35,080 nucleotides of DNA from NCBI GenBank assembly GCA_029883265.1, contig JAOUJM010000022.1, forward strand, positions 1 through 35,080, given 5' to 3'. This document shows, piece by piece, positions 4,510 to 35,080 of this stretch. How positions within the stretch are numbered: the stretch's first letter is position 1; every line of letters starts with the position of its first letter. The notes below the pieces were generated by a model. It was not told the origin of the DNA. It saw nothing but the letters and a program-made list of their open reading frames with translations, and did no database searches. The DNA comes from Gammaproteobacteria bacterium. Lineage in GTDB: Bacteria > Pseudomonadota > Gammaproteobacteria > S012-40. A program made the position numbers and the translations under genes.

Positions 4510-5454
4510 ATGGGTTTATTGAAAAAAAATACGGTAAAAAACACTGTACTCGTTTCTGTGGTATTGCATGACGAAGCTATATCTTGTATTAAAATCTCGC
4601 TTGAAGAAGCACTCCCCAGTGTCGAATTTTGGGACTACCGTACCTTAGATCCGGTGAGCGGTGTTTTGCAAGATCTACTAGGGCAATTGGCCAAAGATCA
4701 TTCGCTTAAAAATGCATGTTTAAGCACATTATTAGCGCAAGATAGTTATCAAATTAAACAAACCGAAGCACCCCCCGTTCCTCTTGAAAATTTAAATGAA
4801 GCTTTGCAGTGGCAGGTAAATGATTTATTCGATTGGGAGCCCGAGTCGGTCGTGGTAGATTCGATTCCCTTCCCTGAAGATGTGTCTAGTAAAGATCAGG
4901 ATCAAGCGATTTACGTGTTGGCCGCAAAAAAAATTGACGTGCAAAGTCTGGTGGAAATTTTTAGTACCAGCAAACTGAAGTTGGCTTTTATTGATGTTCC
5001 CGAATTAGCGCAACGCAACTTGGCAACATTGTGTGAGCAAGAGCACCACGGTGTGGCCTTAATTTCATTTTCTATGCATTCTTGCCTATTGACCATTAGC
5101 AAGCTTGGTATGCTGTATATGACTCGGCGTTTTGATATTGGTTTAGACAAGCTTTCCGACAAAGAAAATATGATGCAACACTATGAGCGCATAGTCATTG
5201 AAATCCAGCGTTCGTTGGATTTTTACAGCGCGAATTTACATCAGGCGCCGGTGAAAGCATTATATATTTTACCCTTGCAGGTGCAAATACCAGGATTTGT
5301 TGACTATGTAAAAAGCAATCTGTTCATTGATGTGGCAATACTCGATTTGAGTGACCGCTTGAGTTGGAAAACTGAGCCTATGTCGCTGCCGCAGCAAGCT
5401 TTGAGCATTATGGCCATTGGTGCAGGGTTGCGGTTATGGGTGGATGGATCATGA
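4510..5454 (+). CDS. mshI: MSHA biogenesis protein MshI (PilM/GspL-cytoplasmic-like)
   Basis: A 314-residue protein without a membrane segment, resembling the actin-like PilM fold that docks the alignment subcomplex to the cytoplasmic face. The region VEFWDYRTLDP and the block LNEALQWQVNDLFDWEPESV are typical of MshI. I prefer ATG 4510; a TTG nine bases upstream (4501) is in frame, but neither has a clear ribosome-binding site. The stop overlaps the next gene by ATGA. This gene opens the mshI-N half of the locus, which in other genera comes first. Confidence 0.85.
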   Translation: MGLLKKNTVKNTVLVSVVLHDEAISCIKISLEEALPSVEFWDYRTLDPVSGVLQDLLGQLAKDHSLKNACLSTLLAQDSYQIKQTEAPPVPLENLNEALQWQVNDLFDWEPESVVVDSIPFPEDVSSKDQDQAIYVLAAKKIDVQSLVEIFSTSKLKLAFIDVPELAQRNLATLCEQEHHGVALISFSMHSCLLTISKLGMLYMTRRFDIGLDKLSDKENMMQHYERIVIEIQRSLDFYSANLHQAPVKALYILPLQVQIPGFVDYVKSNLFIDVAILDLSDRLSWKTEPMSLPQQALSIMAIGAGLRLWVDGS

Positions 5455-6095
5455 AGCAGCAGATCAATTTCTTTCGACAGGAATTCTTGCCGAAAACCGA
5501 TTGGCTATCCTTACGAATGTTTGCCTACTACGGAGCAATATTGCTCTCAGTATTTGTTTTCTATTATAACTGGCAGGCAGAGCAGATTGTGGTGGCTAGT
5601 GCTAAAGAACAATCGCTGACGGAAAGTGTGAAAACAGTTGATGCTGAGATTAAAAAAATTAGCAACGTACAAGCGGAAAAAATTGATCACGTAAAACTGG
5701 AAAAAGAACTAGTAGAATTGAATAATATACGCAATGCCAAACAAAAAATGTTGACAGAGTTTGGTGATGAATACGAAGCAAGTTTTAGTGGTTTTGCGCC
5801 TTATTTATTGGTGTTTGGGCAGCGGGCGCCACGCGGTTTATGGTTGAATCAAATAGAAATTCGGGCGGAAAATGGTGCTGTTTGGCTTGCTGGGCAAGCG
5901 AGTTCTCCAGGGTTGATTACTCGTTTTATGCAATCACTAGCGAAAACTCAATTATTTGAACAAACACAGTTTAATCAATTCAAAATAGATAGTGTAGTGC
6001 TGGGTAAAGAAGCTGAAGTTCCAGTGATTTACAGTTTTGAATTGGTCAGCTCGAATACCACTGGTCGCCTTGAAATTTTTGCGCAAAAAGAGTGA
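5451..6095 (+). CDS. PilN-like MSHA alignment-complex protein
   Basis: A 214-residue bitopic protein with the PilN plan. A short cytoplasmic N-terminus begins MKQQINFFRQEFLP (compare the INLLP-type motif that binds PilM), one membrane helix spans about residues 25-42, and a coiled-coil stretch is followed by a periplasmic alpha/beta domain. ATG 5451 is chosen because it overlaps the mshI stop (ATGA) and yields a normal N-terminus. An upstream ATG at 5436 would add five residues. It would bind MshI inside and MshJ outside. In some annotations this gene is treated as a second mshI. Confidence 0.82.
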   Translation: MKQQINFFRQEFLPKTDWLSLRMFAYYGAILLSVFVFYYNWQAEQIVVASAKEQSLTESVKTVDAEIKKISNVQAEKIDHVKLEKELVELNNIRNAKQKMLTEFGDEYEASFSGFAPYLLVFGQRAPRGLWLNQIEIRAENGAVWLAGQASSPGLITRFMQSLAKTQLFEQTQFNQFKIDSVVLGKEAEVPVIYSFELVSSNTTGRLEIFAQKE

Positions 6096-20666: not shown

Positions 20667-23600
20667 ATGAACACTAAGGCCTTTTCCGTAGGGAATAAGG
20701 AATCGTCAATAAAGTTCAAGTCACTAGCAGTAGTGCTCTTGGCGTTATTGTTAACGGCTTGTATTGGCGGTGTGCCCGACCAAGAAGACTTTAATAATAG
20801 TGATTTTTCATTGGCGGTTGACGACGATAACGGTCGAGTAAGAAATCTTGCCACGGTTAGTTGGGATGATGATGATAACCAACTTATCGTACGTCTGAGT
20901 GAGCGTAGTCGCAGTAATAATGTTGTCATTCGCGCTGCAGGAACCAATCAGTTGATTGCTAATGTCAATCTTGGTGGTAACCAAGTTCGCGTACGTAACT
21001 CCGATGATGATGACGATGATGACGACCGATCTAGTAGCAATCGCACCTTACGAGTCGATTTAAGCCCTTTTGCCGTACCTTGTCAGGTAGTGGTATCAAC
21101 CTCCGATGGTGTTGGTCGTCCGTTTAATGTTCGTAAAGCGCCGAGCAATTGTCTCGTCTCTGCCGTGAATACATCGCCATTAATCATTAAATCAGCGAAA
21201 TGGGATATTAGTGATAATAAATTAAAAGTAAAAGGTTACGGCGCAGACTTAAATCAGCTTGTGACTATTCGCGATGCAGTTAACGGTACTGTGCTTGGTT
21301 CCGCTGTTGCCAACTCTGTAGGTATTTGGAAACTATCGGTTTATGACTTGTTTGTACCCCCTTGCTCAGTCACTGCGACCGTAGTTGACCAGTTTACTGG
21401 CTATGCTCAATCCAGCACATTGTCGGTACGAAATAGTTCGATTAACTGTAGTGCTATTCCCCCCGTCGGTAACGTTCCCGGTGGAACACAGAATTTCTTA
21501 GAAGGCACTATCAATGTTATTCCCGGCTCTGGTGTTATACAAAATGCTGATGGCACAGTACAAGCTATCTTGCCTGCTAGCATTACCTTCCAAGGTGGAG
21601 CGATTAATCAAAATAACGCAGCTCTTAATTATTTCTGGACATTTGATGGCGCAGTGCCTAATTCGTTGGCACAAAATCCAACGGTTAACTTTAATAACCC
21701 AGGTGTATTCCGCGTAACCTTAACCGTGAGTGATAGTTTTGGTAATCGTGATTTAACCCCTGCGACGATGGTGGTTATTGTAAGCGACAATGTGGCAGTT
21801 AATCGTCCAACCGCAAGTATTGTTAGTCCAGTTTCATCACAAACTATTTCCGCAGGACAATCGGTTTATTTTAGCGCGACCGGTTATAACGCGGGTGATA
21901 TTGGCAACCAACCCTTAAGTTATGTCTGGGATTTTGATGGTGGTTCGAATAATACAACTGTGCAAAATCCAGGTAATGTTGTGTTCTATACGCCTGGCAC
22001 TTATTCGGTTCGTTTAATTGCAGTGGATGCTTGGGGACGAGCTTCAGTACCTGACGTGCGCATTGTGCAAGTCACCCAAGGTACTGGAAATCCAAATGTT
22101 CCTACGACAAATCAAGCGCCAATCGCCAGTATTACTTCGCCAACAGAAACGATTATTCGAGTAAATCCTGGTGGCGTGGTTAATTTCAGTGGTTTCGGTA
22201 GTGATTATGATAATCACACCCCGCTAACTTATCGTTGGGATTTCTCTGCGGGCGCGCCGGTTAGCGTACAGCAAACTGCGATTGCTCAATTTAATACACC
22301 GGGTACTTATCTTGTGACCTTAACTGTATTTGACAGCTTAGGCTTGGCATCGGCTGAACCAGCGGTACGGGTGGTTATTGTTGGTAATACGACGGGTAAT
22401 CCTGGTACTGGTAATGGCACAGGTAATGCGACTATTGGTGATTTCTCGCCAAATGGTACGGTCACATTGCCATCACAAGTGGAGCAGACTATTCAAGTAG
22501 GCCAGTCTTTAGATTTCCGCGCTAGTGGTGTTGATGCCAATGGTGGTGTCGCCAATCTAATCTATATGTGGGATTTTGATGATGCCGCGCCAGATAGCAA
22601 CGTTCAGAACCCAGGTATGGTAACTTTTAATCAAGCCGGTGTTTATCGGGTACGTATGACCGTGCGCAATAGCCAGGGTTATAGTGATCCGTCGCCTGAA
22701 ACTCGCATTATCCGTGTATTACAAAATACCGGTCAGCAGGGTTCGCCAATGGCAACGATCAATACGCCTAACTTGAATAATCAAACCATTAGTGTTGGCG
22801 ACAGCTTGAACTTTAGTGCGACAGCAACCAGTTCAACCGGTCAAGTCATTACTAATACTGCTCAGTTTATTTGGGATTTTGCGGGTGCACGTGAGGATGC
22901 ATTTACCTCTGCACCAGGCAATGTGATTTTCAGTCGAGCCGGTACTTATGATGTGACCTTGTTTGTGAAGGATAACGCAGGACGTGCGTCGAGTTTACAA
23001 ACTCGTCGTATTACTGTGCAAAACATTGGAAATGTGAATCAAGCGCCTAAGGGAGCCATTCAAACACCACTAACCGATGTAATGATTTCAAGCGGTGATA
23101 GCATTAACTTTTATGCTAATGGTTCGGATCCGGATAATGGTACGGGTGTGACTTACACTTGGGCGTTCACCGATATTAATGGCAACACTTTTGGTGCACC
23201 GGCTTCGCGTACCGGAGCGACGCCAGGACTGGTTACCTTTAATCAGCCTGGTGTCTATACGGTAAAACTGGAAATGCGTGACAGCAATAATGCAGTCGAC
23301 CCAAAACCAGAAATGCGCACTATTACTGTAACGTCTAGCGGCGTTAACAGTCAGCCACCGACTGCGACAATCACGACTAGCCATGATAATAGTCAGGTCA
23401 ACGGCACGATTAATATTAATCAAGGGACGTCGATTAGTTTTCAGGGAACGGGCACGGACCCCGATGGCACGGACGCCCTTATTCAATATTATTGGACATT
23501 TTCCGGCGCAGCGGCAGACAGTGATGAACAATTCCCCGGTAATGTGCTTTTCAATAAGCCAGGGACGTTTACTGTATCTCTGAATGTGATTGACGAGTCG

Positions 23601-24302
23601 GGTGTACGCAGTTCTTATCCTGCGACTCGCACCATTCGTGTTCAAGGTAATACGACAATTAGCAATCAAGCACCAAATGGTCAAATTAGCCAACCTGTCA
23701 ACACAGGTACGCAAACCATTTCATTGGGTGACACGATTGTGTTCGAAGCTTCAGCCACGGATACGGATAATAATTATCCATTAACATTGGCGTGGGACTT
23801 TGACACGGCTTCGCCTTCGGTGATTCAAACAATCAATTCGGCTGGACAGACTTCACGTCCAGGCAATGTAACGTTTACTAAAGCGGGAACTTACACGGTG
23901 CGTTTGAATGTCATCGACAGCACTGGTGCGGTAGATAGCACGGCTGATACACGAACGATAATTGTTGCGGGAACTCAGGCGAATAACAATCCGCCAAATA
24001 ATAATCCGCCGGTTTCAGGCAACTTGGTTGCGGTTATTGACCAACCGGTATCAAACCAAACCATTAACGTAGGCGCAAGCTTGAACTTTTCAGGTAGTGC
24101 AAGTGGTACAGCAGCGACGGGTACAGTTAAGTACTACTGGGATTTTTACGGCTTGTCGAATAACTGGCAATTGCAAAATCCGGGCAATGTAGTCTTTACC
24201 AAGAGCGGTGTTTATGAAATTCGTTTACGCGTGGTTGTAAATGAGGGTACCTCGCAAGAATTGGTTTCTGATTATGCGACAAGGACGATCACCGTGCAGT
24301 AG
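20667..24302 (+). CDS. large outer-membrane lipoprotein with nine PKD-like repeats
   Basis: A 1211-residue protein. The signal peptide ends in lipobox LLTAC with Cys32; Ile at +2 predicts outer-membrane sorting. Residues about 60-262 hold two related beta-rich modules of about 100 residues, each closing with a Cys pair (C139/C162 and C233/C261). The first contains an eight-Asp run at 113-120. From about residue 279 to the end there are nine tandem PKD-like Ig-fold repeats. Each has the core W-(D/T)-F-D-G-A near the middle, then NPG-V-F, PGTY-VRLTV-D and a closing ITV strand. There is no enzymatic domain, C-terminal anchor or sorting signal. A surface adhesin, fibre or matrix protein is inferred; the partner is unknown. 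The start is supported by AGGGGG upstream, and an intrinsic terminator follows. Confidence 0.85.
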   Translation: MNTKAFSVGNKESSIKFKSLAVVLLALLLTACIGGVPDQEDFNNSDFSLAVDDDNGRVRNLATVSWDDDDNQLIVRLSERSRSNNVVIRAAGTNQLIANVNLGGNQVRVRNSDDDDDDDDRSSSNRTLRVDLSPFAVPCQVVVSTSDGVGRPFNVRKAPSNCLVSAVNTSPLIIKSAKWDISDNKLKVKGYGADLNQLVTIRDAVNGTVLGSAVANSVGIWKLSVYDLFVPPCSVTATVVDQFTGYAQSSTLSVRNSSINCSAIPPVGNVPGGTQNFLEGTINVIPGSGVIQNADGTVQAILPASITFQGGAINQNNAALNYFWTFDGAVPNSLAQNPTVNFNNPGVFRVTLTVSDSFGNRDLTPATMVVIVSDNVAVNRPTASIVSPVSSQTISAGQSVYFSATGYNAGDIGNQPLSYVWDFDGGSNNTTVQNPGNVVFYTPGTYSVRLIAVDAWGRASVPDVRIVQVTQGTGNPNVPTTNQAPIASITSPTETIIRVNPGGVVNFSGFGSDYDNHTPLTYRWDFSAGAPVSVQQTAIAQFNTPGTYLVTLTVFDSLGLASAEPAVRVVIVGNTTGNPGTGNGTGNATIGDFSPNGTVTLPSQVEQTIQVGQSLDFRASGVDANGGVANLIYMWDFDDAAPDSNVQNPGMVTFNQAGVYRVRMTVRNSQGYSDPSPETRIIRVLQNTGQQGSPMATINTPNLNNQTISVGDSLNFSATATSSTGQVITNTAQFIWDFAGAREDAFTSAPGNVIFSRAGTYDVTLFVKDNAGRASSLQTRRITVQNIGNVNQAPKGAIQTPLTDVMISSGDSINFYANGSDPDNGTGVTYTWAFTDINGNTFGAPASRTGATPGLVTFNQPGVYTVKLEMRDSNNAVDPKPEMRTITVTSSGVNSQPPTATITTSHDNSQVNGTININQGTSISFQGTGTDPDGTDALIQYYWTFSGAAADSDEQFPGNVLFNKPGTFTVSLNVIDESGVRSSYPATRTIRVQGNTTISNQAPNGQISQPVNTGTQTISLGDTIVFEASATDTDNNYPLTLAWDFDTASPSVIQTINSAGQTSRPGNVTFTKAGTYTVRLNVIDSTGAVDSTADTRTIIVAGTQANNNPPNNNPPVSGNLVAVIDQPVSNQTINVGASLNFSGSASGTAATGTVKYYWDFYGLSNNWQLQNPGNVVFTKSGVYEIRLRVVVNEGTSQELVSDYATRTITVQ
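21501..24299 (+). repeat. tandem array of nine PKD-like coding repeats
   Basis: Nine in-frame units of about 270-320 bases encode the repeat domains of the first lipoprotein. Units typically begin near N-Q-A-P or an equivalent and end in T-I-T-V. Protein identity between units is moderate and DNA identity low, which points to an old array rather than recent expansion. The first unit has a long N-terminal insertion and the seventh a longer first loop. Confidence 0.8.
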
Positions 24303-24353: not shown

Positions 24354-24610
24354 GCGATAAAGTACTTACTAACCCTTGCAAGCCTGACAGCTGTCGACTA
24401 TCTTTTCTCACTATAAGGTCAATGACTAATTTATAAACTAGAGTACTTGGGGAGCGGGACTCGCCAAAAGTTTGACGGGGTGTCATAGTAAAAAAATCTA
24501 TTTAATAAATTCATAATCTTTTTTGTCTTAATTGTATTTTTTGTCGTACCTGCCACCTACCAGTGGTCTAACACCACCAAGCTAATGAGTGTCCGCTAAT
24601 AAATATGCGC
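24354..24610. other. AT-rich gap upstream of PKD gene 2
   Basis: No gene is visible here. The stretch must hold the promoter of the second PKD gene. TTGACG at 24472-24477 is a fair -35 element, but the hexamer 17 bases on is AATCTA, a poor -10, so I do not call a promoter. TGGGGAGCGGGAC (24458-24470) loosely resembles TCGGAGCGGGAAG in the gap before PKD gene 1. Confidence 0.5.
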
Positions 24611-24672
24611 TCCATCCACGGAGTTTGGGATGGACGTGTTTACACACGTGGGATGTCGTTGACAGCGACATC
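24611..24672 (+). promoter_or_regulatory. structured 5' leader of PKD gene 2 (three hairpins)
   Basis: Three perfect hairpins follow one another: TCCATCC/GGATGGA (24611-24634), CGTGT-TTAC-ACACG (24635-24648) and GATGTCG/CGACATC (24652-24672). The ribosome-binding site GAGGGA (24682-24687) comes ten bases later. The first two stems are directly adjacent and could stack coaxially. An mRNA-stabilising or translation-control leader is inferred; it does not fit a riboswitch family that I know. Confidence 0.55.
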
Positions 24673-24693
24673 GTGCAAGGTGAGGGAACACTC

Positions 24694-27600
24694 ATGGCAA
24701 TGATGCACATCGTCCAGCTCAATCGTGGCTGGGTTTTTAATATTCTTTTTTCATTATTCTTTTTATCTGCTTGTGCGCCATCAAATGAAGATGAAAATAT
24801 CGCTGATGGCACAGATGCAATAGTAGCGGGTACGCATCGAAATCCGGTGAATCAAGCGCCGGTCGCAGAAATTGTCGCGCCTATTGGTAATCGTACAATT
24901 AGCGAAGGTCAGTCAGTTATTTTTCAAGGTCGAGGGACTGACGCAGATAATAATACGCCTTTGAGCTATCTATGGAGCTTCGATGGCATAATCCCTAATA
25001 GCCAAGCTCAAAACCCAGGTGAAATAATTTTTCCACACGCCGGGGTTTATCGAGTGCGTTTATCAGTCACCGATAGTTTGGGTTTAAGCTCAAGCAACGT
25101 GGTTGAACGTACCATCGTAGTTACTGGTGTGGGCGTGACTAATCAATCACCGAATGGACAAATTATTTCGCCGGCACAGAATATGTCGATTCGTGTGGGT
25201 GACAGTTTAAATTTAAGTGGAAGTGGCAGTGATGCTGATCGTAATACACCCTTATCCTATTTTTGGGATATGGACGGTGCAGTGCCAAATTTTGCAACAC
25301 AAAATCCGGGCAATGTGGTGTTCAATCAAGCCGGTACCTATCAAATTCGTTTAATCGTGAGTGATAGTCTTGGCCTGCAAGATTCAACACCCGCACAAGT
25401 CACGATTACCGTGAGTGGTGGCAATAATTTTAATCAAGCGCCCAATGGCACAATTATTAGTCCGACCACTGATGTGGTGATTAATCAAGGTGATGTTCTA
25501 AATTTTATTGGAACCGGAAGTGATCCCAATGGCGATACACCACTGAGTTATGCTTGGTTTTATGATGGCGCGGTTCCGGTGTCGAATGGTCAGAACCCAG
25601 GTAATGTAACGTTTAATCAGCCCGGTGATTTCCTTGTTAAATTGACTGTGAGCGATTCTACTGGACTCGCTGATCCAACGCCCGCGACTCGGCGTGTAGT
25701 TGTGCGTGCGGTTAATAATGATAATGAGGCGCCGAACGGCAATATTATTTCTCCCGCATCGGATATGACCATTCAAGAAGGCACTGAATTATTTTTTAGC
25801 GCCAATGGTTCTGACCCGGATAATGATTACCCCTTAGCATATTTTTGGAATTTTGATGGTGCCTGGGTTAATGTCACCAGTCAAAATGCTGGACGTGTGG
25901 TATTCAATCAAGCGGGTACGTATTATATACAACTCAGTGTACAGGATAGTTTAGGCCTGCAAGATCCATCGCCTGCCGTACGTCGTATCGTGGTGCAAAA
26001 ATCAAACGCACCAACGGGTAATCTGCCACCGGAAGGTCAAATAATTTTACCGACGACGCACCAAATAATTAATGTGGGACAAACCATTGCCTTTAGTGGC
26101 AGTGGAAGTGATCCTGATAACAATCAACCTTTGAGTTATCGTTGGAATCTTGATGGTGTGATGCCAAACACAACCAACCAGAATCCCGGCAATATTACAT
26201 TTAGCAAAGTTGGCACTTATCAAATTAGTTTAACCGTGACGGATGCTTTGGGTTTATCCGATCCGACACCGCAAGTGCGAATTGTTCAAGTACGTAGTGT
26301 GCAGTCATCAAATACTCCACCGAGTGGCCGTATCGATAGTCCTCGAGGCGATCGAAGTATTGAAGCAGGGTCTTCGATTTCGTTTAGTGCCTCGGGTAGT
26401 GATATCGATGGCAATTTACCGTTGCGTTATATTTGGCATTTTGCAGGAGCGGCGCCTAATTTTATTGGTGCAAATCCGGGCAATATTATTTTTGAACGTG
26501 CTGGTACTTATGCCGTTAGCATGACGGTAATAGATAGCTTGGGTGCTGCCGATCCTTCGCCAGAGATTCGTACGATTACTGTTTCAAATAATCGACCCAC
26601 GGGGGCACCACCGAATGGGCGCATTGTCTCCCCCGGTACTGATGTTACGATTAATGCAGGTGAACGTTTATTTTTTACCGCAACCGGAAGTAGTCCTGAT
26701 AGTAATACGCCTTTAAGCTATTTTTGGGATATGGATGGAGGCGCAAATAATTCGTCCAGTCAGTCGCCTGGTAATGTGCGTTTTGATCGTGCAGGGGTTT
26801 ATCGTATTGCATTAACCGTCACCGATAGCATTGGATTGCTTGATCTTACACCTGCGGTACGCACTGTTACTGTATTAGGCGGACAAGTGAATCAAGCTCC
26901 CGATACTACAATGGTTGCACCGAGTGCTGATCGTGTAATTAATGTAGGTGAGTCGGTTTATTTTGTTGCTACTGCTACTGATCCGGAAAACGATTTACCG
27001 ATAAGCTACCGCTGGGATTTTAATGGCGGTGCTGTAAATTCAAATCTGCAAAGTCCAGGTTATGTCGCATTCAATCGTGTTGGCACCTATGTGGTGAGAG
27101 TAACGGCAACAGATAGCTTGGGCAATTCCGACGCAACACCGGCATTGCGAACGATTACGGTGCAGCAAGCGAGTAATAGTAATTCACCACCCAACGGGCA
27201 AATTACATCGCCATTAAATAATGTCACTATTGATGCCAATCAAACAGTGAATTTCACCTCGACCGGCAGTGATCCGGATGGTGATTTACCCTTACGTTAT
27301 TTTTGGAATTTTAATGGTGTGATTGCAAATTCCAGTCAACAAAATCCTGGCAATATTCGCTTTCCAAATCCTGGTACTTATGCAGTGAGCTTAACCGTAA
27401 GTGATAACCGTAATCTTGCTGACGCTACACCGGATATTCGCATTATCACCGTACGTGACCAACAACCCGTGGGTAACGCACCTGAGGGACGTATCGTGGC
27501 GCCGGGCAGCAATGTTTCTATTAATCGTGGCGAGTCAGTATATTTTACTGCGACCGTGCGTGATGATTCGGATAACAGTCCTTACACCTACGAATGGGAT

Positions 27601-30363
27601 TTTGATAATGCGCGCAGTAATTTTATTGGACAAAAACCAGGCAATATCACATTTAATAACTCTGGAACCTATCGGGTTCGGTTAAATGTTCGCAATCGTT
27701 TTGGCGTGGCCGATCCCACACCCGCCGAACGTGTGATCACTGTAGGTACGGTGCAAGGAAACTTACCGCCGGATTCTCGCATTGATAATCCATCGGGTGA
27801 TCGTGTCATTGTGCTTGGCAGTAGTTTGAGTTTTAGCGGCACTGGTATTGATCCCGAAGGTCAGGCCATGAGTTATTTATGGACTTTTGGTGATGGTCGC
27901 AGTTCGAGCTCGCGTAATCCGGGTAGTATTAGCTTTAATCAAGTCGGTACCTATCAGGTTCGGTTTACCGCTAGTGATAATTTGGGGCAAGCCGATCCCA
28001 CACCTGCCACGGTCACCGTCAATGTAGTAAATCAACCAAACGCAAATAATCCGCCAAATGGACGTATTGTTTTACCGAGTGGTGCAGTCAGCGTTACGGC
28101 GGGTAATGGCGTGTTATTTACCGGCAGCGCTATCGATCCAGATAATGACACACCTATTCGTTATCATTGGAATTTTGCTGGAGCAGCACCTAATTCAGCG
28201 GCGCAAAATCCTGGTTTTGTTGTGTTTAATAATCCTGGTACTTATCGCGTGAGATTGCATGTGACCGATAACCTAGGTCTCGCCGACCCAACACCGGCTG
28301 AAGTTGTGGTAACGGTAACCGGTAATAATTCCAATAATCCACCCAATGGGACTATTCGTACTCCGAGTGGAAATCTAATGATCGAGCTTGGCGCCACGGT
28401 TAATTTCACTGCACGTGCAACCGATCCTGATGGCGACAATATGACTTATTTATGGGACTACGATGGCGCGTTGCCAAATTCAAACGCTCGTGATCCTGGC
28501 TCGGTGAGTTTTAATCAAGTTGGCACCTTCACTGTGCGGTTTATTGTTAGTGATGAATTTGGTTTGCAAGACCCAACACCTGATTCGGTGGTCATTAGTG
28601 TGAGCAATCCACAAAATCTAAATCAAGCGCCGACTGGAGCTATTGTTACCCCAACCTCAGATGTAACGATTTATGCAGGTGATAGTTTAGATTTACGTGC
28701 GACGGGTAGTGATCCGGATGGTAATTTACCTTTGAGTTTTAATTGGGATATGAATGGCGCTGCAAGCAATAGTAATCAGCAGAATCCAGGCAATGTGCGA
28801 TTCAATATTCCGGGTGTATATCGCATCCGTATGCTGGTGCGTGATTCACAAGGACTAGCTGATCCTACACCGGCAGAGCGTTTGATTACTGTGCGCGGGG
28901 TAGCCGTCGATATGAATGCGCCGAATGGCACCATTACTTCGCCCTCCACTAATCAAACGATTGATGCGGGACAAAGTTTGAATTTCAGTGCAAATGCCAA
29001 CGATCCCGATAATGATTTCCCGTTACGTTATTTCTGGAATATGGATGGCGCTGCACCAAACTTTACCGTGCTTAATCCGGGTAACGTGGTGTTCAATAAT
29101 CCAGGCACTTATCGTATACGTTTTACCGTAACCGATGCTGTAGGATTAAGTGACCCCATACCTGCTGAAATAATTGTGCAAGTCTTGCCCACGGACCAAC
29201 CACCAGCAAATGCGCAACGACCCAATGGCAGTATTGTTTCGCCGAGAGAGCATATGTCGATTACGGTTGGTGAGACCGTGTATTTCGATGGTTCAGGTAA
29301 TGATCCGGATGGTTTGAATGGCTTAATAAGCTATCGCTGGGATTTTGCAGGTGCAGTGCCTAACTCAAATGTTAAATCACCCGGCAATGTTACTTTCGAT
29401 GAAGTCGGTACGTATCGTATACGCTTAACGGTAACCGATGCACAAGGACTATCAGATTTAACCCCAGCTGAGCGCATTATTAGCGTGAAAAGTCCGACTA
29501 GTAATAACAATCCGCCCGAGACATGGTTGATTTCGCCCACCCAAAGTCAAACCATAGCCACAGGCAATAGTGTTTATTTCAATGCGGCAGGTAGTGATCC
29601 TGAAAACCATTTGCCCTTACGTTTTTATTGGGATTTTGCCGGCGTCGCGCCTAATAGCATTGGTCAAACACCGGGTGAGGTAAGTTTTACACAGCCGGGT
29701 ATTTATTATGTCATGGTGCGCGCCGTCGATGCCTTAGGTCTAGCTGATGATACCCCAGCTTTTGTGATCATCACGGTACAGGATCAACCGCAATCAAATA
29801 GCGCGCCTAATGCGATCATTTCACCGTCGACAAATCAAACTATAAGTATTGGTCAAAGCATTGTTTTTCAAGGCAATGCAACCGATCCTGATGGTAACGG
29901 ACCATTTACTTTTCGTTGGGATTTCGGTAGTGTACGCCCCGCGACCTCGTTACAGAATCCAGGTAGTGTCTTGTTTGACCAAGCCGGCGTGTATACGATT
30001 CGTCTAACCGTATGGGATGATCAACGCATCGTCGATGCGACACCGGCGGAAATTACCGTAACCGTTAATGATGGTGGTAATGGCGGTAATCGTGCACCCA
30101 ACGGGCAAATTAGCAGTCCTAGCCGTGATATCACGCTTAATCGTGGCGAAAGCGTGGATTTTCGTGGTTCGGCAAGTGATCCCGATGGAGATGGCGTCAG
30201 CTACCGTTGGGATATGGACGGAGTGGTACCAAACACTACCCGTCAGAACCCAGGTATTGTAAGATTCGACAAATCTGGGGTATATGTCATTAAACTCATT
30301 GTTACAGACACCAAGAGTTTGAGTGATCCCACGCCTCCTACTCGAACCATCACGGTTCGCTAG
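24694..30363 (+). CDS. giant outer-membrane lipoprotein with nineteen PKD-like repeats
   Basis: A 1889-residue protein. The signal peptide (MAMMHIVQLNRGWVFNILFS...) ends in lipobox LSAC with Cys27; Ala at +2 predicts outer-membrane sorting. A short acidic linker (SNEDENIADGTD) is followed by nineteen PKD-like repeats of about 97 residues filling the rest of the chain. The usual repeat core is WDFDGA-PNS--QNPG-V-FN--GTY-IRL-VTDSLGL-DPTPA-R-ITV. I chose ATG 24694 because GAGGGA is six bases upstream and a proper lipoprotein signal begins there; an open frame back to GTG 24589 runs through the leader hairpins and is not credible as protein. No catalytic, anchor or autotransporter domain is seen. 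Probably an extended surface fibre or adhesin, paralogous to the previous gene. Confidence 0.87.
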   Translation: MAMMHIVQLNRGWVFNILFSLFFLSACAPSNEDENIADGTDAIVAGTHRNPVNQAPVAEIVAPIGNRTISEGQSVIFQGRGTDADNNTPLSYLWSFDGIIPNSQAQNPGEIIFPHAGVYRVRLSVTDSLGLSSSNVVERTIVVTGVGVTNQSPNGQIISPAQNMSIRVGDSLNLSGSGSDADRNTPLSYFWDMDGAVPNFATQNPGNVVFNQAGTYQIRLIVSDSLGLQDSTPAQVTITVSGGNNFNQAPNGTIISPTTDVVINQGDVLNFIGTGSDPNGDTPLSYAWFYDGAVPVSNGQNPGNVTFNQPGDFLVKLTVSDSTGLADPTPATRRVVVRAVNNDNEAPNGNIISPASDMTIQEGTELFFSANGSDPDNDYPLAYFWNFDGAWVNVTSQNAGRVVFNQAGTYYIQLSVQDSLGLQDPSPAVRRIVVQKSNAPTGNLPPEGQIILPTTHQIINVGQTIAFSGSGSDPDNNQPLSYRWNLDGVMPNTTNQNPGNITFSKVGTYQISLTVTDALGLSDPTPQVRIVQVRSVQSSNTPPSGRIDSPRGDRSIEAGSSISFSASGSDIDGNLPLRYIWHFAGAAPNFIGANPGNIIFERAGTYAVSMTVIDSLGAADPSPEIRTITVSNNRPTGAPPNGRIVSPGTDVTINAGERLFFTATGSSPDSNTPLSYFWDMDGGANNSSSQSPGNVRFDRAGVYRIALTVTDSIGLLDLTPAVRTVTVLGGQVNQAPDTTMVAPSADRVINVGESVYFVATATDPENDLPISYRWDFNGGAVNSNLQSPGYVAFNRVGTYVVRVTATDSLGNSDATPALRTITVQQASNSNSPPNGQITSPLNNVTIDANQTVNFTSTGSDPDGDLPLRYFWNFNGVIANSSQQNPGNIRFPNPGTYAVSLTVSDNRNLADATPDIRIITVRDQQPVGNAPEGRIVAPGSNVSINRGESVYFTATVRDDSDNSPYTYEWDFDNARSNFIGQKPGNITFNNSGTYRVRLNVRNRFGVADPTPAERVITVGTVQGNLPPDSRIDNPSGDRVIVLGSSLSFSGTGIDPEGQAMSYLWTFGDGRSSSSRNPGSISFNQVGTYQVRFTASDNLGQADPTPATVTVNVVNQPNANNPPNGRIVLPSGAVSVTAGNGVLFTGSAIDPDNDTPIRYHWNFAGAAPNSAAQNPGFVVFNNPGTYRVRLHVTDNLGLADPTPAEVVVTVTGNNSNNPPNGTIRTPSGNLMIELGATVNFTARATDPDGDNMTYLWDYDGALPNSNARDPGSVSFNQVGTFTVRFIVSDEFGLQDPTPDSVVISVSNPQNLNQAPTGAIVTPTSDVTIYAGDSLDLRATGSDPDGNLPLSFNWDMNGAASNSNQQNPGNVRFNIPGVYRIRMLVRDSQGLADPTPAERLITVRGVAVDMNAPNGTITSPSTNQTIDAGQSLNFSANANDPDNDFPLRYFWNMDGAAPNFTVLNPGNVVFNNPGTYRIRFTVTDAVGLSDPIPAEIIVQVLPTDQPPANAQRPNGSIVSPREHMSITVGETVYFDGSGNDPDGLNGLISYRWDFAGAVPNSNVKSPGNVTFDEVGTYRIRLTVTDAQGLSDLTPAERIISVKSPTSNNNPPETWLISPTQSQTIATGNSVYFNAAGSDPENHLPLRFYWDFAGVAPNSIGQTPGEVSFTQPGIYYVMVRAVDALGLADDTPAFVIITVQDQPQSNSAPNAIISPSTNQTISIGQSIVFQGNATDPDGNGPFTFRWDFGSVRPATSLQNPGSVLFDQAGVYTIRLTVWDDQRIVDATPAEITVTVNDGGNGGNRAPNGQISSPSRDITLNRGESVDFRGSASDPDGDGVSYRWDMDGVVPNTTRQNPGIVRFDKSGVYVIKLIVTDTKSLSDPTPPTRTITVR
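24850..30360 (+). repeat. tandem array of nineteen PKD-like coding repeats
   Basis: Nineteen in-frame units of roughly 285-300 bases. Each opens with N-x-x-P-(N/E/D)-G-x-I and closes with a T-V strand. Short DNA blocks such as AATCCGGGCAATGT recur between units, but the units as a whole have diverged. Unit 11 (27760-28044) alone keeps the canonical PKD motif FGDG (27886-27897). Confidence 0.85.
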
Positions 30364-30386
30364 GGGAACGCTTAAGCTCTCTTTTA

Positions 30387-30414
30387 GGGTGGTCGCCAGG
30401 CCACCCTTTTTTTT
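30387..30414 (+). terminator. intrinsic terminator after PKD gene 2
   Basis: GGGTGG (30387-30392) pairs with CCACCC (30401-30406), with possible extra pairs inside the TCGCCAGG loop, and eight T residues follow. It lies 23 bases after the stop codon. Confidence 0.92.
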
Positions 30415-30887: not shown

Positions 30888-31658
30888 ATGACAAAACCAA
30901 TCGTTATTATCGGTACAGGAGAAATGGGTGGGGTATTTGCCCGTGGTTTTTTGCGTGCAGGTTATCCGGTATATCCGATCAATCGGGCGATGAACATTGC
31001 CGAGCAGGCACAAGCTTATCCTGAACCTGAGCTTGTCCTGGTCGCCGTAGGCGAAGCGGATTTGCATGCAACGCTAACTTCGATTCCAGCGGCATGGCGG
31101 GACAAATTAGGCTTGCTGCAAAATGAATTATTACCACGTGATTGGCAATCGCATAGTATTGAAAATCCAACAGTGATTTCTGTATGGTTCGAGAAAAAAC
31201 CGGGTCAGGATGCAAAAGTATTGATTGCCAGTCCAGCATACGGGCCAAAAGCGTTGATTTTAGTTGATAGTTTGCAAAGCATTGGCATTGATGCGCGTAT
31301 GTTGAATAGCGAAGAGGAATTACTATTCGAACTCGTGCGAAAAAATGTTTATATCCTCACCACCAATATCGCAGGTTTGGAATGTGGTGGAAATGTGCAA
31401 GGTTTATTAGGTGCACATCAGGGGCTTGCAGAATTAGTGGGCAACGAAGTTATGGATATTCAAGACTTTCTCACGGCAAAACAAAATAATCGTGTAGCCT
31501 TAATGCAAGGATTTGAGGAAGGCATTAATGGTGATCTTGTGCATCAATGTATGGGACGTTCGGCGCCTGCGCGTTTAAAACGTGCATTGGCTTTTGCAGA
31601 TGAAGCTAGTATTGCTGCGCCTAAGTTGCGGCAAATTTACAAACAATTCTGCTGTTAG
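30888..31658 (+). CDS. Rossmann-fold NAD(P)-dependent dehydrogenase-like protein
   Basis: A 256-residue protein starting MTKPIVIIGTGEMGGVFARGF, a GxGxMG dinucleotide-binding motif at residues 9-14 as in the 6-phosphogluconate/ketopantoate/pyrroline-carboxylate reductase superfamily. The C-terminal half is helical (NVYILTTNIAGLECGGNV, about 153-170), as expected for a substrate domain of this group. Substrate cannot be told. It opens the right-hand gene run, and 21 bases separate it from the metallo-hydrolase gene. Confidence 0.7.
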   Translation: MTKPIVIIGTGEMGGVFARGFLRAGYPVYPINRAMNIAEQAQAYPEPELVLVAVGEADLHATLTSIPAAWRDKLGLLQNELLPRDWQSHSIENPTVISVWFEKKPGQDAKVLIASPAYGPKALILVDSLQSIGIDARMLNSEEELLFELVRKNVYILTTNIAGLECGGNVQGLLGAHQGLAELVGNEVMDIQDFLTAKQNNRVALMQGFEEGINGDLVHQCMGRSAPARLKRALAFADEASIAAPKLRQIYKQFCC

Positions 31659-31679: not shown

Positions 31680-32384
31680 ATGAGTGATGCATCAAGTTTT
31701 GACATTCGATTTCTCGAATTGGGGCCAATGGAAAACCTGGTCTACCTCATCACCGATAAAAAAAGCAAACGCGCTGCTGTGGTTGATCCTGCCTGGCAGG
31801 TTTCTGAAATTATTAAACTAGCACAAGAAAAAGATGTGCAAATCACTGATGTTTTATTAACACACAGTCATTTTGATCATATTAATGGGATCGATGAAGT
31901 GCTAAAAGATTACGATGCACAAGTGCATTTGCTCAAGGCAGAAGCAAAGTTCTGGGGGCATTACCAGGATGCCTCAACGGCCCATCACGGCGGAGACATT
32001 ATCAAACTTGGTGAAACTGAGATCGAAATTCTTCATACCCCGGGACACACGCCTGGCTCTGCATGTTATCACGTGGGTGAGCAATTGATCACGGGTGATA
32101 CTTTATTTGTATTTGGCTGTGGTCGTTGCGATCTCGACGGTGGTGATCCAAACGTTATGTATGACACTTTGCGCAAGTTGGAAAAAGATATGCCGAGTCA
32201 AACCGTCATATGTCCGGGTCATCATTACGCTGAGCATGAACTATCAACCATGGCTGAGCAAGTTGAAGGTAATCCATTTATGCATTTTCATAAGCGCGAA
32301 GATTTTGTGCAATATCGCATGCATGATCACGATAAAACTCGATCATCACCTTATCATGCCGTATTAAGAAAAAACCAAATTTAA
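31680..32384 (+). CDS. metallo-beta-lactamase-fold hydrolase, glyoxalase II-like
   Basis: A 234-residue MBL-fold hydrolase with all metal ligands of the family: H62-x-H64-x-D66-H67 in THSHFDH, H123 in HTPGHTPG, D140 in GDTLF and H181/H182 in CPGHHY. The FGCGRCD stretch after GDTLF is typical of glyoxalase II and persulfide dioxygenase relatives. It probably hydrolyses a thioester such as an acylglutathione. The start is well supported by AGGAG about eight bases upstream. It is followed after two bases by the glycosyltransferase gene. Confidence 0.86.
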   Translation: MSDASSFDIRFLELGPMENLVYLITDKKSKRAAVVDPAWQVSEIIKLAQEKDVQITDVLLTHSHFDHINGIDEVLKDYDAQVHLLKAEAKFWGHYQDASTAHHGGDIIKLGETEIEILHTPGHTPGSACYHVGEQLITGDTLFVFGCGRCDLDGGDPNVMYDTLRKLEKDMPSQTVICPGHHYAEHELSTMAEQVEGNPFMHFHKREDFVQYRMHDHDKTRSSPYHAVLRKNQI

Positions 32385-32386
32385 AC

Positions 32387-33223
32387 GTGCATCCTTCGGT
32401 TTCAGTTATTATTCCCAGTTATAATCGCAGCAGAGTTCTACCGCGAGCGATTAACTCCGTGATGGCGCAAACATCTCCTGTTGCGGAAATTATTGTAATT
32501 GACGACGGCTCGACCGATGCGAGTGCCGAGTTAATCAAATCAAGATTTCCCCAAGTATGTCTAATTCAACAAGCGAATCACGGTGTAAGTCACGCACGTA
32601 ATCAGGGTATTGCTGCAGCTAGTGGTGAATGGATTGCTTTGTTAGACTCCGATGATGAATGGCTGCCTGAAAAAATCGAAACACAACTAGCCGCGTTACA
32701 GCGATCACCTGAGTTTCTATTATGTCATAGTGACGAACAATGGATTCGACGTGGCGTACGAGTCAATGCCATGAACAAGCATCGTAAGTATGGTGGCTGG
32801 ATATTTGAAAAATGTTTGCCGCTTTGTGCGATTTCACCATCCGCTAGTCTCTTGCATCATAGTTTGTTTGATAAATACGGTTTGTTTGACGAGCAGTTGC
32901 CTGCTTGCGAAGATTATGATTTATGGTTACGTTTGTGTGCTTATGAACCCGTACTGTATGTGGATCAAACCTTAATAAAAAAATACGGTGGCCACGAAGA
33001 CCAGCTGTCGGGCAAGTTTTGGGGTATGGATAGGTTTCGCATACGTGCTTTAGAGAAGCTACTGAAACAATCTGAGCTACCTGATAACTATCGAACATTA
33101 AGCCAACAAATGCTTAACAAAAAACTAAAAATATTCATTCACGGCGGTTTGAAACGCGGACGCACCGATGCTATGCAGCCTTATATTCAGTTGCAACAAC
33201 AATTACAGGCTCATTTAGTATGA
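32387..33223 (+). CDS. family 2 glycosyltransferase (GT-A fold)
   Basis: A 278-residue cytosolic GT2 enzyme. It starts VSVIIPSYNRSRVLPRAINSV and has the nucleotide-sugar motif DDGS (39-42), the metal-binding DSDD (87-90) and the catalytic-base region CEDYDLWLR (around 174-182). No membrane segment is present. The start is GTG two bases after the preceding stop. The last base pairs overlap the phosphorylase-like gene (ATGA). The acceptor is unknown; no other polysaccharide genes lie nearby, so a role in a specialised small pathway is possible. Confidence 0.85.
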   Translation: MHPSVSVIIPSYNRSRVLPRAINSVMAQTSPVAEIIVIDDGSTDASAELIKSRFPQVCLIQQANHGVSHARNQGIAAASGEWIALLDSDDEWLPEKIETQLAALQRSPEFLLCHSDEQWIRRGVRVNAMNKHRKYGGWIFEKCLPLCAISPSASLLHHSLFDKYGLFDEQLPACEDYDLWLRLCAYEPVLYVDQTLIKKYGGHEDQLSGKFWGMDRFRIRALEKLLKQSELPDNYRTLSQQMLNKKLKIFIHGGLKRGRTDAMQPYIQLQQQLQAHLV

Positions 33224-34038
33224 TAAATATAATCTGCGCATTGGATTGCGAGGCGCGGGTGTTTATTGATTTCTACAAATTAAAACGGGTGCGTGAACAT
33301 AGTCTTGCGATTTATGAAAATCAGGTTATGCGCGTGCTGGTATCCGGTATCGGTCACCTAGCGGCGGCCACTACGTGTGCTTATGCGGCGGCTTTGTCGG
33401 CAAAAGCATCGGTCTATATTAATATTGGATCGGCGGGCGGAAAAGATTTTTCTATTGGCGACTGTTTTCTAATTGATAAAATTTCCAGCGAAATATTTGT
33501 CGATGATTTCTATCCGGTGATAAGTTTTTCCACAGGTAGTCGTCGTGCCATGCTCAAAAGCATGGATATGCCGAATGCGGCCTATGTTGCAGGTGGTTTG
33601 CAAGACATGGAAGCGTATGGCTTTTATGCGGCGGCCAGACAATTCACCACACTAGAGCTGATTCAATGTATTAAAGTGGTGTCCGACACCCAAGCCAATG
33701 AGCGGGATGGATTGAGCAAACAATTTTTACAAGAGTTGCTGTTGTCGAGTTTTAGTGAAATTCGAAAAATAATTCAAAGCCTGCAGCAGTTATGTGCTGA
33801 ATACGAAATTCAAATAAGTGAGCCACAATATCTGTCGTTGATGTTAAATCAATTCAAATTTAGTGAAGCGCAAAAACAGCAACTCAAACGTTTATTGCGA
33901 GGAATGAATAGTCAGAAAAAATTGTCACCTATCCTGCTAGAACAACTGAGCGGCTGTGGCAAGGCGAATGATGTTTTGATGGTGTTAGCGCAAAAACTGG
34001 CGGATCAGGTTCTGCAGCTAGGTCAATTTGATGATTGA
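33220..34038 (+). CDS. nucleoside phosphorylase-like protein with C-terminal extension
   Basis: A 272-residue protein. Residues 1-180 match the nucleoside phosphorylase/MTA-SAH nucleosidase fold: MINIICALDCEARVF, the VLVSGIGHLAAA glycine loop, INIGSAGG, the nucleoside-binding DMEAYGFY segment (compare MEGAA in MTA nucleosidase) and VVSDTQAN, whose Asp is at the position of the catalytic Asp. The last 90 or so residues are helical and unassigned. It may cleave or phosphorolyse an N-glycosidic bond. It overlaps the glycosyltransferase by ATGA and the radical SAM gene by eight bases. Confidence 0.72.
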   Translation: MINIICALDCEARVFIDFYKLKRVREHSLAIYENQVMRVLVSGIGHLAAATTCAYAAALSAKASVYINIGSAGGKDFSIGDCFLIDKISSEIFVDDFYPVISFSTGSRRAMLKSMDMPNAAYVAGGLQDMEAYGFYAAARQFTTLELIQCIKVVSDTQANERDGLSKQFLQELLLSSFSEIRKIIQSLQQLCAEYEIQISEPQYLSLMLNQFKFSEAQKQQLKRLLRGMNSQKKLSPILLEQLSGCGKANDVLMVLAQKLADQVLQLGQFDD

Positions 34039-35026
34039 AACCATTTATGTTGAGCAATCATGTATTGGTAGTGATCGAGTGCAAACGATTATTAAGCGTT
34101 TTCCGCGTACGCGCATACTTGAGTGTGAATTCTATAGTCAGGTGTTTAATCGGGCAGGACAAAATTTTCGGCTACAAAAAAAATTACCTTGTTTGATACT
34201 GGCGCAAAAACACAAGGGGTTTGTGCTGCCAGCGCCAGCCGGTTATGGCATTGGTGGGAAGCATAACTTTTATTTTTCTCATATGTTGAATTGTTTGTAT
34301 GACTGTCGTTATTGTTTTTTACAAGGCATGTATCGTTCGGCTAACTATGTCTTGTTCGTCAACTATGAAGATTTTGCCACAGATATTGAGCGGAAAATTG
34401 TTGAGCATGGTCAAGACTCTGTGTATTTTTTCTCAGGTTATGATTGTGATAGTCTTGCCTTGGAGCCGGTGAGTCGATTTGTTGAGTTCATATTGCCCGT
34501 GTTTGCGCGAAATCCACAGGCCTATTTAGAGTTGCGCACAAAAAGCACACAGGTGCGGCAATTGCTCGACATTCAAGCGGTTCTGCCAAATGTGATAGTG
34601 GCTTTTAGTTTATCGCCAGAAAAAATTGTACAAGCATTTGAAATCAAGACGCCGAGCCTGCAGAAAAGAATTAGTGCTATGCAAAAGTTACAAGCCAAAG
34701 GATGGCCTATTGGTTTACGCTTCGATCCAGTGTTACTGTTTGAAAATTATGAATTAACTTATAAAGAATTTTTTCATACGGTCTTTACTTCATTGGATAT
34801 AGAAAAAATTCATTCGGTCAGTTTGGGAGGGTTTCGCATGCCAAAACATTTCCATGAAAAAATACTGAAACTTTACCCGGAGGAGCCTTTGTTATCAGCA
34901 GGAATGCAATCTGATAAATCCCTGGTGGCCTATCGCCCCGACGACGAAAAAGAATTGCTGGCATTTTGCCAAGCGGAAATTTTAAAATATATACAACCTG
35001 ATCAGTATTTCCCTTGTCAGTATTAG
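34031..35026 (+). CDS. spore photoproduct lyase-family radical SAM protein
   Basis: A 331-residue protein resembling SplB in length and layout. The radical SAM cluster motif is C88-LYD-C92-RY-C95 (CX3CX2C), with the family context FSHMLNCLYDCRYCFLQGMY. A further Cys, C139 (in YDCDSLALEP), lies 44 residues after the cluster, about where the hydrogen-donor Cys of characterised SPLs is found. ATG 34031 is preferred to an in-frame TTG at 34028. There is no sporulation context, so the substrate may be a DNA photoproduct or another nucleic-acid or nucleoside lesion. Coupled to the phosphorylase-like gene upstream and the SDR downstream. Confidence 0.82.
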   Translation: MIETIYVEQSCIGSDRVQTIIKRFPRTRILECEFYSQVFNRAGQNFRLQKKLPCLILAQKHKGFVLPAPAGYGIGGKHNFYFSHMLNCLYDCRYCFLQGMYRSANYVLFVNYEDFATDIERKIVEHGQDSVYFFSGYDCDSLALEPVSRFVEFILPVFARNPQAYLELRTKSTQVRQLLDIQAVLPNVIVAFSLSPEKIVQAFEIKTPSLQKRISAMQKLQAKGWPIGLRFDPVLLFENYELTYKEFFHTVFTSLDIEKIHSVSLGGFRMPKHFHEKILKLYPEEPLLSAGMQSDKSLVAYRPDDEKELLAFCQAEILKYIQPDQYFPCQY

Positions 35027-35039
35027 GACGAAATAGCCT

Positions 35040-35080
35040 ATGTCAAAAATCATTCTAATCACTGGTGCGAGTTCAGGCAT
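35040..35080 (+). CDS. short-chain dehydrogenase/reductase, N-terminus only
   Basis: The last 41 bases encode MSKIILITGASSG..., the TGxxxGxG start of a classical SDR Rossmann fold. AGGA (35025-35028) lies eleven bases upstream. The gene runs off the window and belongs to the same transcription unit as the SPL-family gene, 13 bases before it. Confidence 0.85.
   Translation, partial: MSKIILITGASSG

Follow-up and report, generated by a model that had tools for sequence, protein, structure and literature searches.

We describe here a cassette of four genes at the end of a 35,080-nucleotide stretch of gammaproteobacterial DNA (contig JAOUJM010000022.1 of assembly GCA_029883265.1, hereafter the window), encoding a family-2 glycosyltransferase (GT2), a nucleosidase (NUC), a radical S-adenosylmethionine (SAM) protein of the spore photoproduct lyase (SPL) family (RSAM) and a short-chain dehydrogenase (SDR). 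Judging from sequence comparisons across bacteria, GT2, NUC, an SPL-like radical SAM enzyme and a carbonyl reductase (SDR, or in one family an aldo/keto reductase, AKR) are inherited together, and it is almost certain that these genes form one functional unit. The set is real, widespread and apparently undescribed, being built from known folds, and a literature search for a described pathway with this gene set found none. By analogy with known pathways, we tentatively favour a dedicated four-enzyme biosynthetic unit, with adenosyl transfer as the likeliest mechanism, whose product is most likely an adenosyl-derived, sugar-modified molecule and whose role is probably not DNA repair.

The cassette is conserved over great taxonomic distances. 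When RSAM was used to scan public genomes, 13 relatives emerged at 47–53% identity, from Omnitrophica, Acidobacteria, Gammaproteobacteria, Sumerlaeota, Chlamydiae, Opitutia, Neomarinimicrobiota and Alphaproteobacteria, and beside the radical SAM gene most of them have homologues of at least two of the genes GT2, NUC and SDR (two or three), mostly in the same order. All four genes stand side by side in 25 of 52 loci, and 24 of these complete loci, from several phyla, share the order GT2–NUC–RSAM–SDR on one strand. The four gene trees correlate with one another (rho 0.53–0.72), and no further gene family is widely recurrent beside the cassette loci, the few repeats being confined to small groups of loci.

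Co-occurrence was assessed in 369 genomes of the class Gammaproteobacteria, among which the window-type RSAM is found in 49, NUC in 58 and GT2 in 59. Window-type RSAM and NUC occur together in 46 genomes (Fisher p 1e-43), and GT2 is present in 44 of the 49 genomes with window-type RSAM; when any SPL-like RSAM of the set is counted, the association reaches p 7e-59 with NUC and 1e-60 with GT2. These p-values overstate independence, as the genomes are kin, yet the carriers span dozens of families. Cassette genes that are unlinked still co-occur within genomes: in two genomes (G249 and G179) NUC does not adjoin RSAM but is located elsewhere, in G179 paired with GT2. Altogether the set or its core is present in 64 of the 369 genomes (~17%), other carriers belonging to Alphaproteobacteria, Verrucomicrobia (Opitutia), Chlamydiae, Omnitrophica, Acidobacteria, Neomarinimicrobiota, Sumerlaeota and Fusobacteria. 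An SPL-like RSAM of one of three types (see below) is encoded in 63 genomes, all of which belong to the set, including one (G059, 82% complete) that shows RSAM and SDR only.

Could this be a chance neighbourhood of unrelated housekeeping genes? Solely the generic nature of the GT2 and SDR families speaks for that explanation, which the co-occurrence statistics refute and which we reject, its probability being negligible, because the arrangement recurs in fixed order across many phyla, because its parts co-occur genome-wide even if unlinked and because two fusions join its members. An earlier reading of the window, made from the sequence alone, had taken the genes for one functional unit without a named pathway in a gammaproteobacterial host; the co-occurrence of the partners in relatives, which it had named beforehand as a check, proved strong both among the 369 genomes and in loci across phyla, and the host does belong to this class.

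Within the set, sequence evidence ties NUC to RSAM in two ways: the two proteins can be fused, and the presence of a C-terminal domain in NUC follows the type of RSAM. In Fusobacterium vincentii (locus L095) the two are fused into a 623-residue protein, which is followed by an SDR. Twelve of the gammaproteobacterial genomes carry NUC without the window-type RSAM, and 11 of these encode a longer SPL-like protein (RSAM-L, ~410–475 residues in complete copies), whose gene usually lies well away from the cassette. RSAM-L is restricted to those 11 genomes and occurs in none without NUC, and it is in exactly these 11 that NUC is short, without its C-terminal domain; in the twelfth (G270) a long NUC runs into a contig end. 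Profile–profile comparison finds a weak similarity of the NUC C-terminal domain to the N-terminal domain of RSAM-L (E 0.0004–0.001, with none of 60 block shuffles as good), whereas plain hmmsearch supported no homology between this domain and either the RSAM-L N-terminal domain or the Fusobacterium linker. The C-terminal domain probably docks NUC with RSAM, and we infer that it has moved between both genes. A second fusion, of NUC with GT2, occurs in three genomes of one family together with a third type of SPL-like RSAM (loci L123 and L153), which adjoins the AKR in place of SDR. At two loci (L153, 5320–8459; L155, 4881–7997) this third RSAM is flanked by the AKR and by a gene with weak similarity to ParB/Noc proteins.

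NUC has decayed at some loci. At L121 (5396–6058), between GT2 and RSAM, its core is decayed and its C-terminal domain is kept (E 4e-8), and the same core-lost pattern is seen between GT2 and RSAM at L122 (~5150–5900), where the signal of the C-terminal domain is weak. A gut scaffold (L096, 4505–4987) encodes a 160-residue protein between SDR and RSAM that resembles what is left of a NUC after loss of its N-terminal catalytic half. This scaffold and another (L097; MT835514.1 and MT835770.1, respectively) are both named ‘Bacteriophage sp.’ and look like bacterial scaffolds. A phage origin was rejected, as a scan of IMG/VR confirmed no RSAM relative and these two matches are unannotated faecal scaffolds of bacterial appearance. 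The Fusobacterium vincentii record (NZ_CP084075.1) is a 2.1-Mb ‘plasmid’ that is probably the chromosome.

What NUC does can be judged from its fold and its active site. Its AF2 model (pLDDT 94.6) aligns with the methylthioadenosine (MTA) nucleosidase 2h8g at VIA Z 22.0 (rmsd 2.5, 192 residues) and with MTA nucleosidases overall at Z ~20–22 over 177–192 residues, placing it in the PNP/UDP-type fold. With the MTA/S-adenosylhomocysteine (SAH) nucleosidase MtnN (MTAN) it shares this fold and equivalents of the catalytic Glu12, Glu174 and Asp197 (E11, E131 and D156), while its core is short, as in the Chlamydia nucleosidase CT263. It differs from MtnN in scoring 15 bits with TIGR01704 against a cut-off of 73.8 bits, and from the Escherichia coli MTAN in the deletion of ~40 residues mid-protein, in the extra C-terminal helical domain and in being tied to a radical SAM gene. 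Because the model is MTAN-like and the catalytic residues are invariant, NUC likely removes adenine from a 5′-substituted adenosine. The sequence-only reading had called this protein ‘phosphorylase-like’, which is right as to superfamily (PF01048) and is made more precise by the likeness to MTAN-type nucleosidases.

RSAM, in turn, keeps the architecture of SPL without some of its key residues. Its AF2 model (pLDDT 90.4) aligns with SPL (4fhg) at VIA Z 33.2 (rmsd 2.6, 322 residues), and the PDB sequences that match its profile at E 0.001 or better are SPL chains only; TAL-effector matches in the same kind of search were disregarded as summed sub-threshold repeats. QueL, the queuine lyase whose solved structure we take to be 6P78, was not among the profile matches in PDB sequences, the presence of 6P78 in the searched set not having been checked. 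RSAM has in common with SPL (SplB; PF20903, TIGR04070) the whole fold, the CX3CX2C motif and a tyrosine equivalent to SPL Tyr96, but identity is ~19%, the TIGR04070 score is 95 bits against a cut-off of 400 bits, and Tyr137 replaces the H-atom donor Cys140. In an alignment of the RSAM profile to 4fhc the R304/Y305 loop of SPL falls in a seven-residue gap, and visual alignment places Gln at the Cys140 position in RSAM-L and Glu there in the third RSAM type. Both Cys140, mutants of which are named in PDB titles, and the Arg304/Tyr305 loop, which has a role in lesion recognition, are important in SPL. Because Cys140 is Tyr in 55 of 55 sequences and the loop is missing, RSAM is unlikely to perform the known SPL reaction, the repair of 5-thyminyl-5,6-dihydrothymine. 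The host is, unlike those of SPL, a non-spore former, and the cassette partners are absent from SPL systems. The TIGR03886 family likewise represents the SPL superfamily in non-spore formers, and RSAM scores 65.7 bits with it against a cut-off of 437.55 bits.

These differences bear on the first of two options offered by the sequence-only reading, a route for the repair and salvage of DNA or RNA lesions. On this view RSAM would split lesions of the spore-photoproduct kind, and its partners would salvage the products. RSAM does lie within the SPL superfamily, and some SOS operons contain SplB-like enzymes (PMC3765255), these being SPL-superfamily proteins of non-spore formers whose gene context differs from that of the RSAM cassette. 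However, the Cys140 position is occupied by Tyr, Gln or Glu across the three RSAM types, no SOS (LexA-type) box was found near the operon, no DNA-repair gene recurs beside the set, and one carrier apparently comes from groundwater (to judge by its record name), where ultraviolet light is absent. As a glycosyltransferase and a reductase also make no sense in repair, we consider this role very improbable. The other option, that a modified nucleoside or glycoside is made, is the one that fits best.

A related possibility is that the set serves to modify a nucleotide, RNA or another nucleic acid. RSAM would then bind a nucleotide-like substrate and NUC would remove a base, leaving SDR and GT2 to complete a hypermodified, glycosylated nucleoside. 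The full-length SPL fold (Z 33 over 322 residues) is consistent with this, as is the presence, among the next structural neighbours of the RSAM model, of two enzymes with RNA or nucleotide substrates, RlmN and viperin. Set against these likenesses are the missing R304/Y305 loop and the failure to find either a nucleic-acid-binding domain or an RNA-modification gene recurrent beside the set, such that we judge modification of nucleic acids improbable.

In the adenosyl-transfer pathway that we tentatively prefer, RSAM would cleave SAM reductively and add the 5′-deoxyadenosyl radical to an unsaturated acceptor, rather than abstract hydrogen or split a dimer as SPL does. NUC, held on RSAM via its C-terminal domain, would then hydrolyse the N-glycosidic bond of the adduct and free adenine, SDR or AKR would reduce the exposed ribose (in its aldehyde form) or another carbonyl, and GT2 would attach a sugar to the product or to its precursor. 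The N-glycosidic chemistry of the sequence-only reading is kept here, with its nucleic-acid substrate better read as an adenosyl product of the radical SAM enzyme, from which adenine is removed.

Adenosyl transfer by a radical SAM enzyme followed by a nucleosidase has a precedent in MqnE and MqnB of the futalosine route to menaquinone, and the nucleosidase of that route has the fold of NUC. In hopanoid synthesis, HpnH attaches 5′-deoxyadenosyl to diploptene, after which adenine is split off by HpnG, bacteriohopanetetrol is formed by an unidentified enzyme and the glycosyltransferase HpnI adds a sugar (PMC12583986), while in arsenosugar synthesis the radical SAM enzyme ArsS adenosylates arsenic (PMC12159101). 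The cassette resembles HpnH/HpnG/HpnI in logic (radical SAM enzyme, adenine-removing nucleosidase, reduction step, glycosyltransferase), but RSAM matches SPL models rather than HpnH, and no squalene or hopene genes were seen beside the set. Membership of a hopanoid cluster was rejected, as neither RSAM nor NUC has an hpnH or hpnG NCBIfam match at E 0.1 or better, leaving analogy only. With MqnE/MqnB and ArsS the proposal shares radical SAM adenosyl transfer, although these belong to other radical SAM families and no menaquinone or arsenic genes were seen in the cassette.

Several observations weigh against adenosyl transfer. In SPL itself the adenosyl radical serves to abstract hydrogen, and the SPL fold is retained in full by RSAM. 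NUC evolves faster (23–34% identity, against mostly 45–59% for RSAM and GT2), as might be expected of an accessory enzyme. Two genomes from a single family (G051 and G295) have a NUC core without catalytic residues and still keep GT2 and RSAM, and deadenylation by NUC is therefore dispensable there. Finally, a canonical MTA/SAH nucleosidase is found in 34 of the 369 genomes, all among the 305 without the set and none among the 64 with it (p 0.0016, phylogeny not controlled), an absence that also fits a housekeeping role for NUC. These points speak for the main rival explanation, in which RSAM is an H-abstractor like other SPL-fold enzymes and oxidizes, epimerizes or rearranges a sugar or nucleotide, while NUC clears inhibitory 5′-deoxyadenosine, and SDR and GT2 process the product. 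Yet most genomes of the class are without MTAN anyway, the remaining radical SAM enzymes in these cells do without a partner, and the near-exceptionless co-occurrence of NUC with RSAM and their fusion in one lineage exceed the needs of a general scavenger. We regard H-abstraction with NUC as a scavenger as rather unlikely.

At the studied locus (Table 1) the gene positions given by the sequence-only reading agree with the open reading frames and the sequence, and its family assignments hold by Pfam and SDR models, with the Pfam matches of GT2, NUC and RSAM (PF00535, PF01048 and PF20903) all exceeding the Pfam cut-offs. GT2 and NUC overlap in ATGA at 33220, NUC and RSAM overlap by eight bases (RSAM ATG at 34031, stop at 35026), and the SDR start codon at 35040 lies 13 bases past the RSAM stop. 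The GT2 motifs DSDD, CEDYDLW and GGHxDQLS are conserved, its identity to cassette homologues being 42–56%. The window ends with its contig, which cuts SDR; a 157-base overlap (99%) joins it to contig C348, where the complete SDR (236 residues; L018, 7461–8171, minus strand) has conserved Ser131, Tyr144 and Lys148.

Table 1. Features of the cassette and its upstream neighbour in the window
Feature	Position	Strand	Details
Metallo-beta-lactamase-fold hydrolase	31680..32384	+	PF00753 82 bits; 2 bases upstream of GT2
GT2, family-2 glycosyltransferase	32387..33223	+	278 aa, GTG start; PF00535 118 bits
NUC, MTAN-fold nucleosidase	33220..34038	+	272 aa; core 1-195 + C-terminal helical domain; PF01048 33.7 bits
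NUC Glu11	33250..33252	+	aligns with catalytic Glu12 of E. coli MTAN; invariant 48/48
NUC Met130-Glu131	33607..33612	+	aligns with ribose-binding Met173-Glu174 of MTAN; invariant 48/48
NUC Asp156	33685..33687	+	aligns with adenine-protonating Asp197 of MTAN; invariant 48/48
NUC C-terminal helical domain, probable RSAM docking domain	33706..34035	+	~residues 163-272
RSAM, SPL-family radical SAM protein	34031..35026	+	331 aa; PF20903 75.7 bits
RSAM CX3CX2C [4Fe-4S] motif (C88, C92, C95)	34292..34315	+	from sequence; invariant 55/55
RSAM Tyr137, position of SPL H-atom donor Cys140	34439..34441	+	hidden Markov model (HMM) alignment to 4fhc; Tyr 55/55
SDR, short-chain dehydrogenase, first 41 bases	35040..35080	+	matches many SDR models

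The metallo-beta-lactamase-fold gene is probably co-transcribed with the cassette at this locus and stands outside the conserved set, being found upstream of the cassette in just three sampled loci, from relatives of the window's family. It is preceded on the same strand by a ProC/F420-oxidoreductase-like gene (30888–31658). Both neighbours were rejected as cassette members, as they are not conserved with the set. Further upstream of the operon lie genes for two very long lipoprotein-like or secreted proteins with tandem PKD-like repeats (20667–24302, 1211 residues; 24589–30363, 1924 residues), followed by a strong terminator-like hairpin and T run at 30386–30407.

Taken as a whole, the set may represent a widespread, undescribed pathway in which SPL-fold adenosyl transferases, coupled by docking domain or fusion to a nucleosidase and joined by a reductase and a glycosyltransferase, make a new class of ribose-derived, glycosylated metabolites, with three SPL-like enzymes recruited interchangeably for one step; we put this forward as a conjecture that could well prove wrong. 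Since SPL family models are the only ones that RSAM matches, it is liable to be annotated as an enzyme of DNA repair, a label that the evidence presented here suggests is misleading, pointing instead to an undescribed metabolite. If the proposed mechanism is true, it would represent new chemistry for SPL-fold enzymes and a further case of a relay between a radical SAM enzyme and an adenine nucleosidase.

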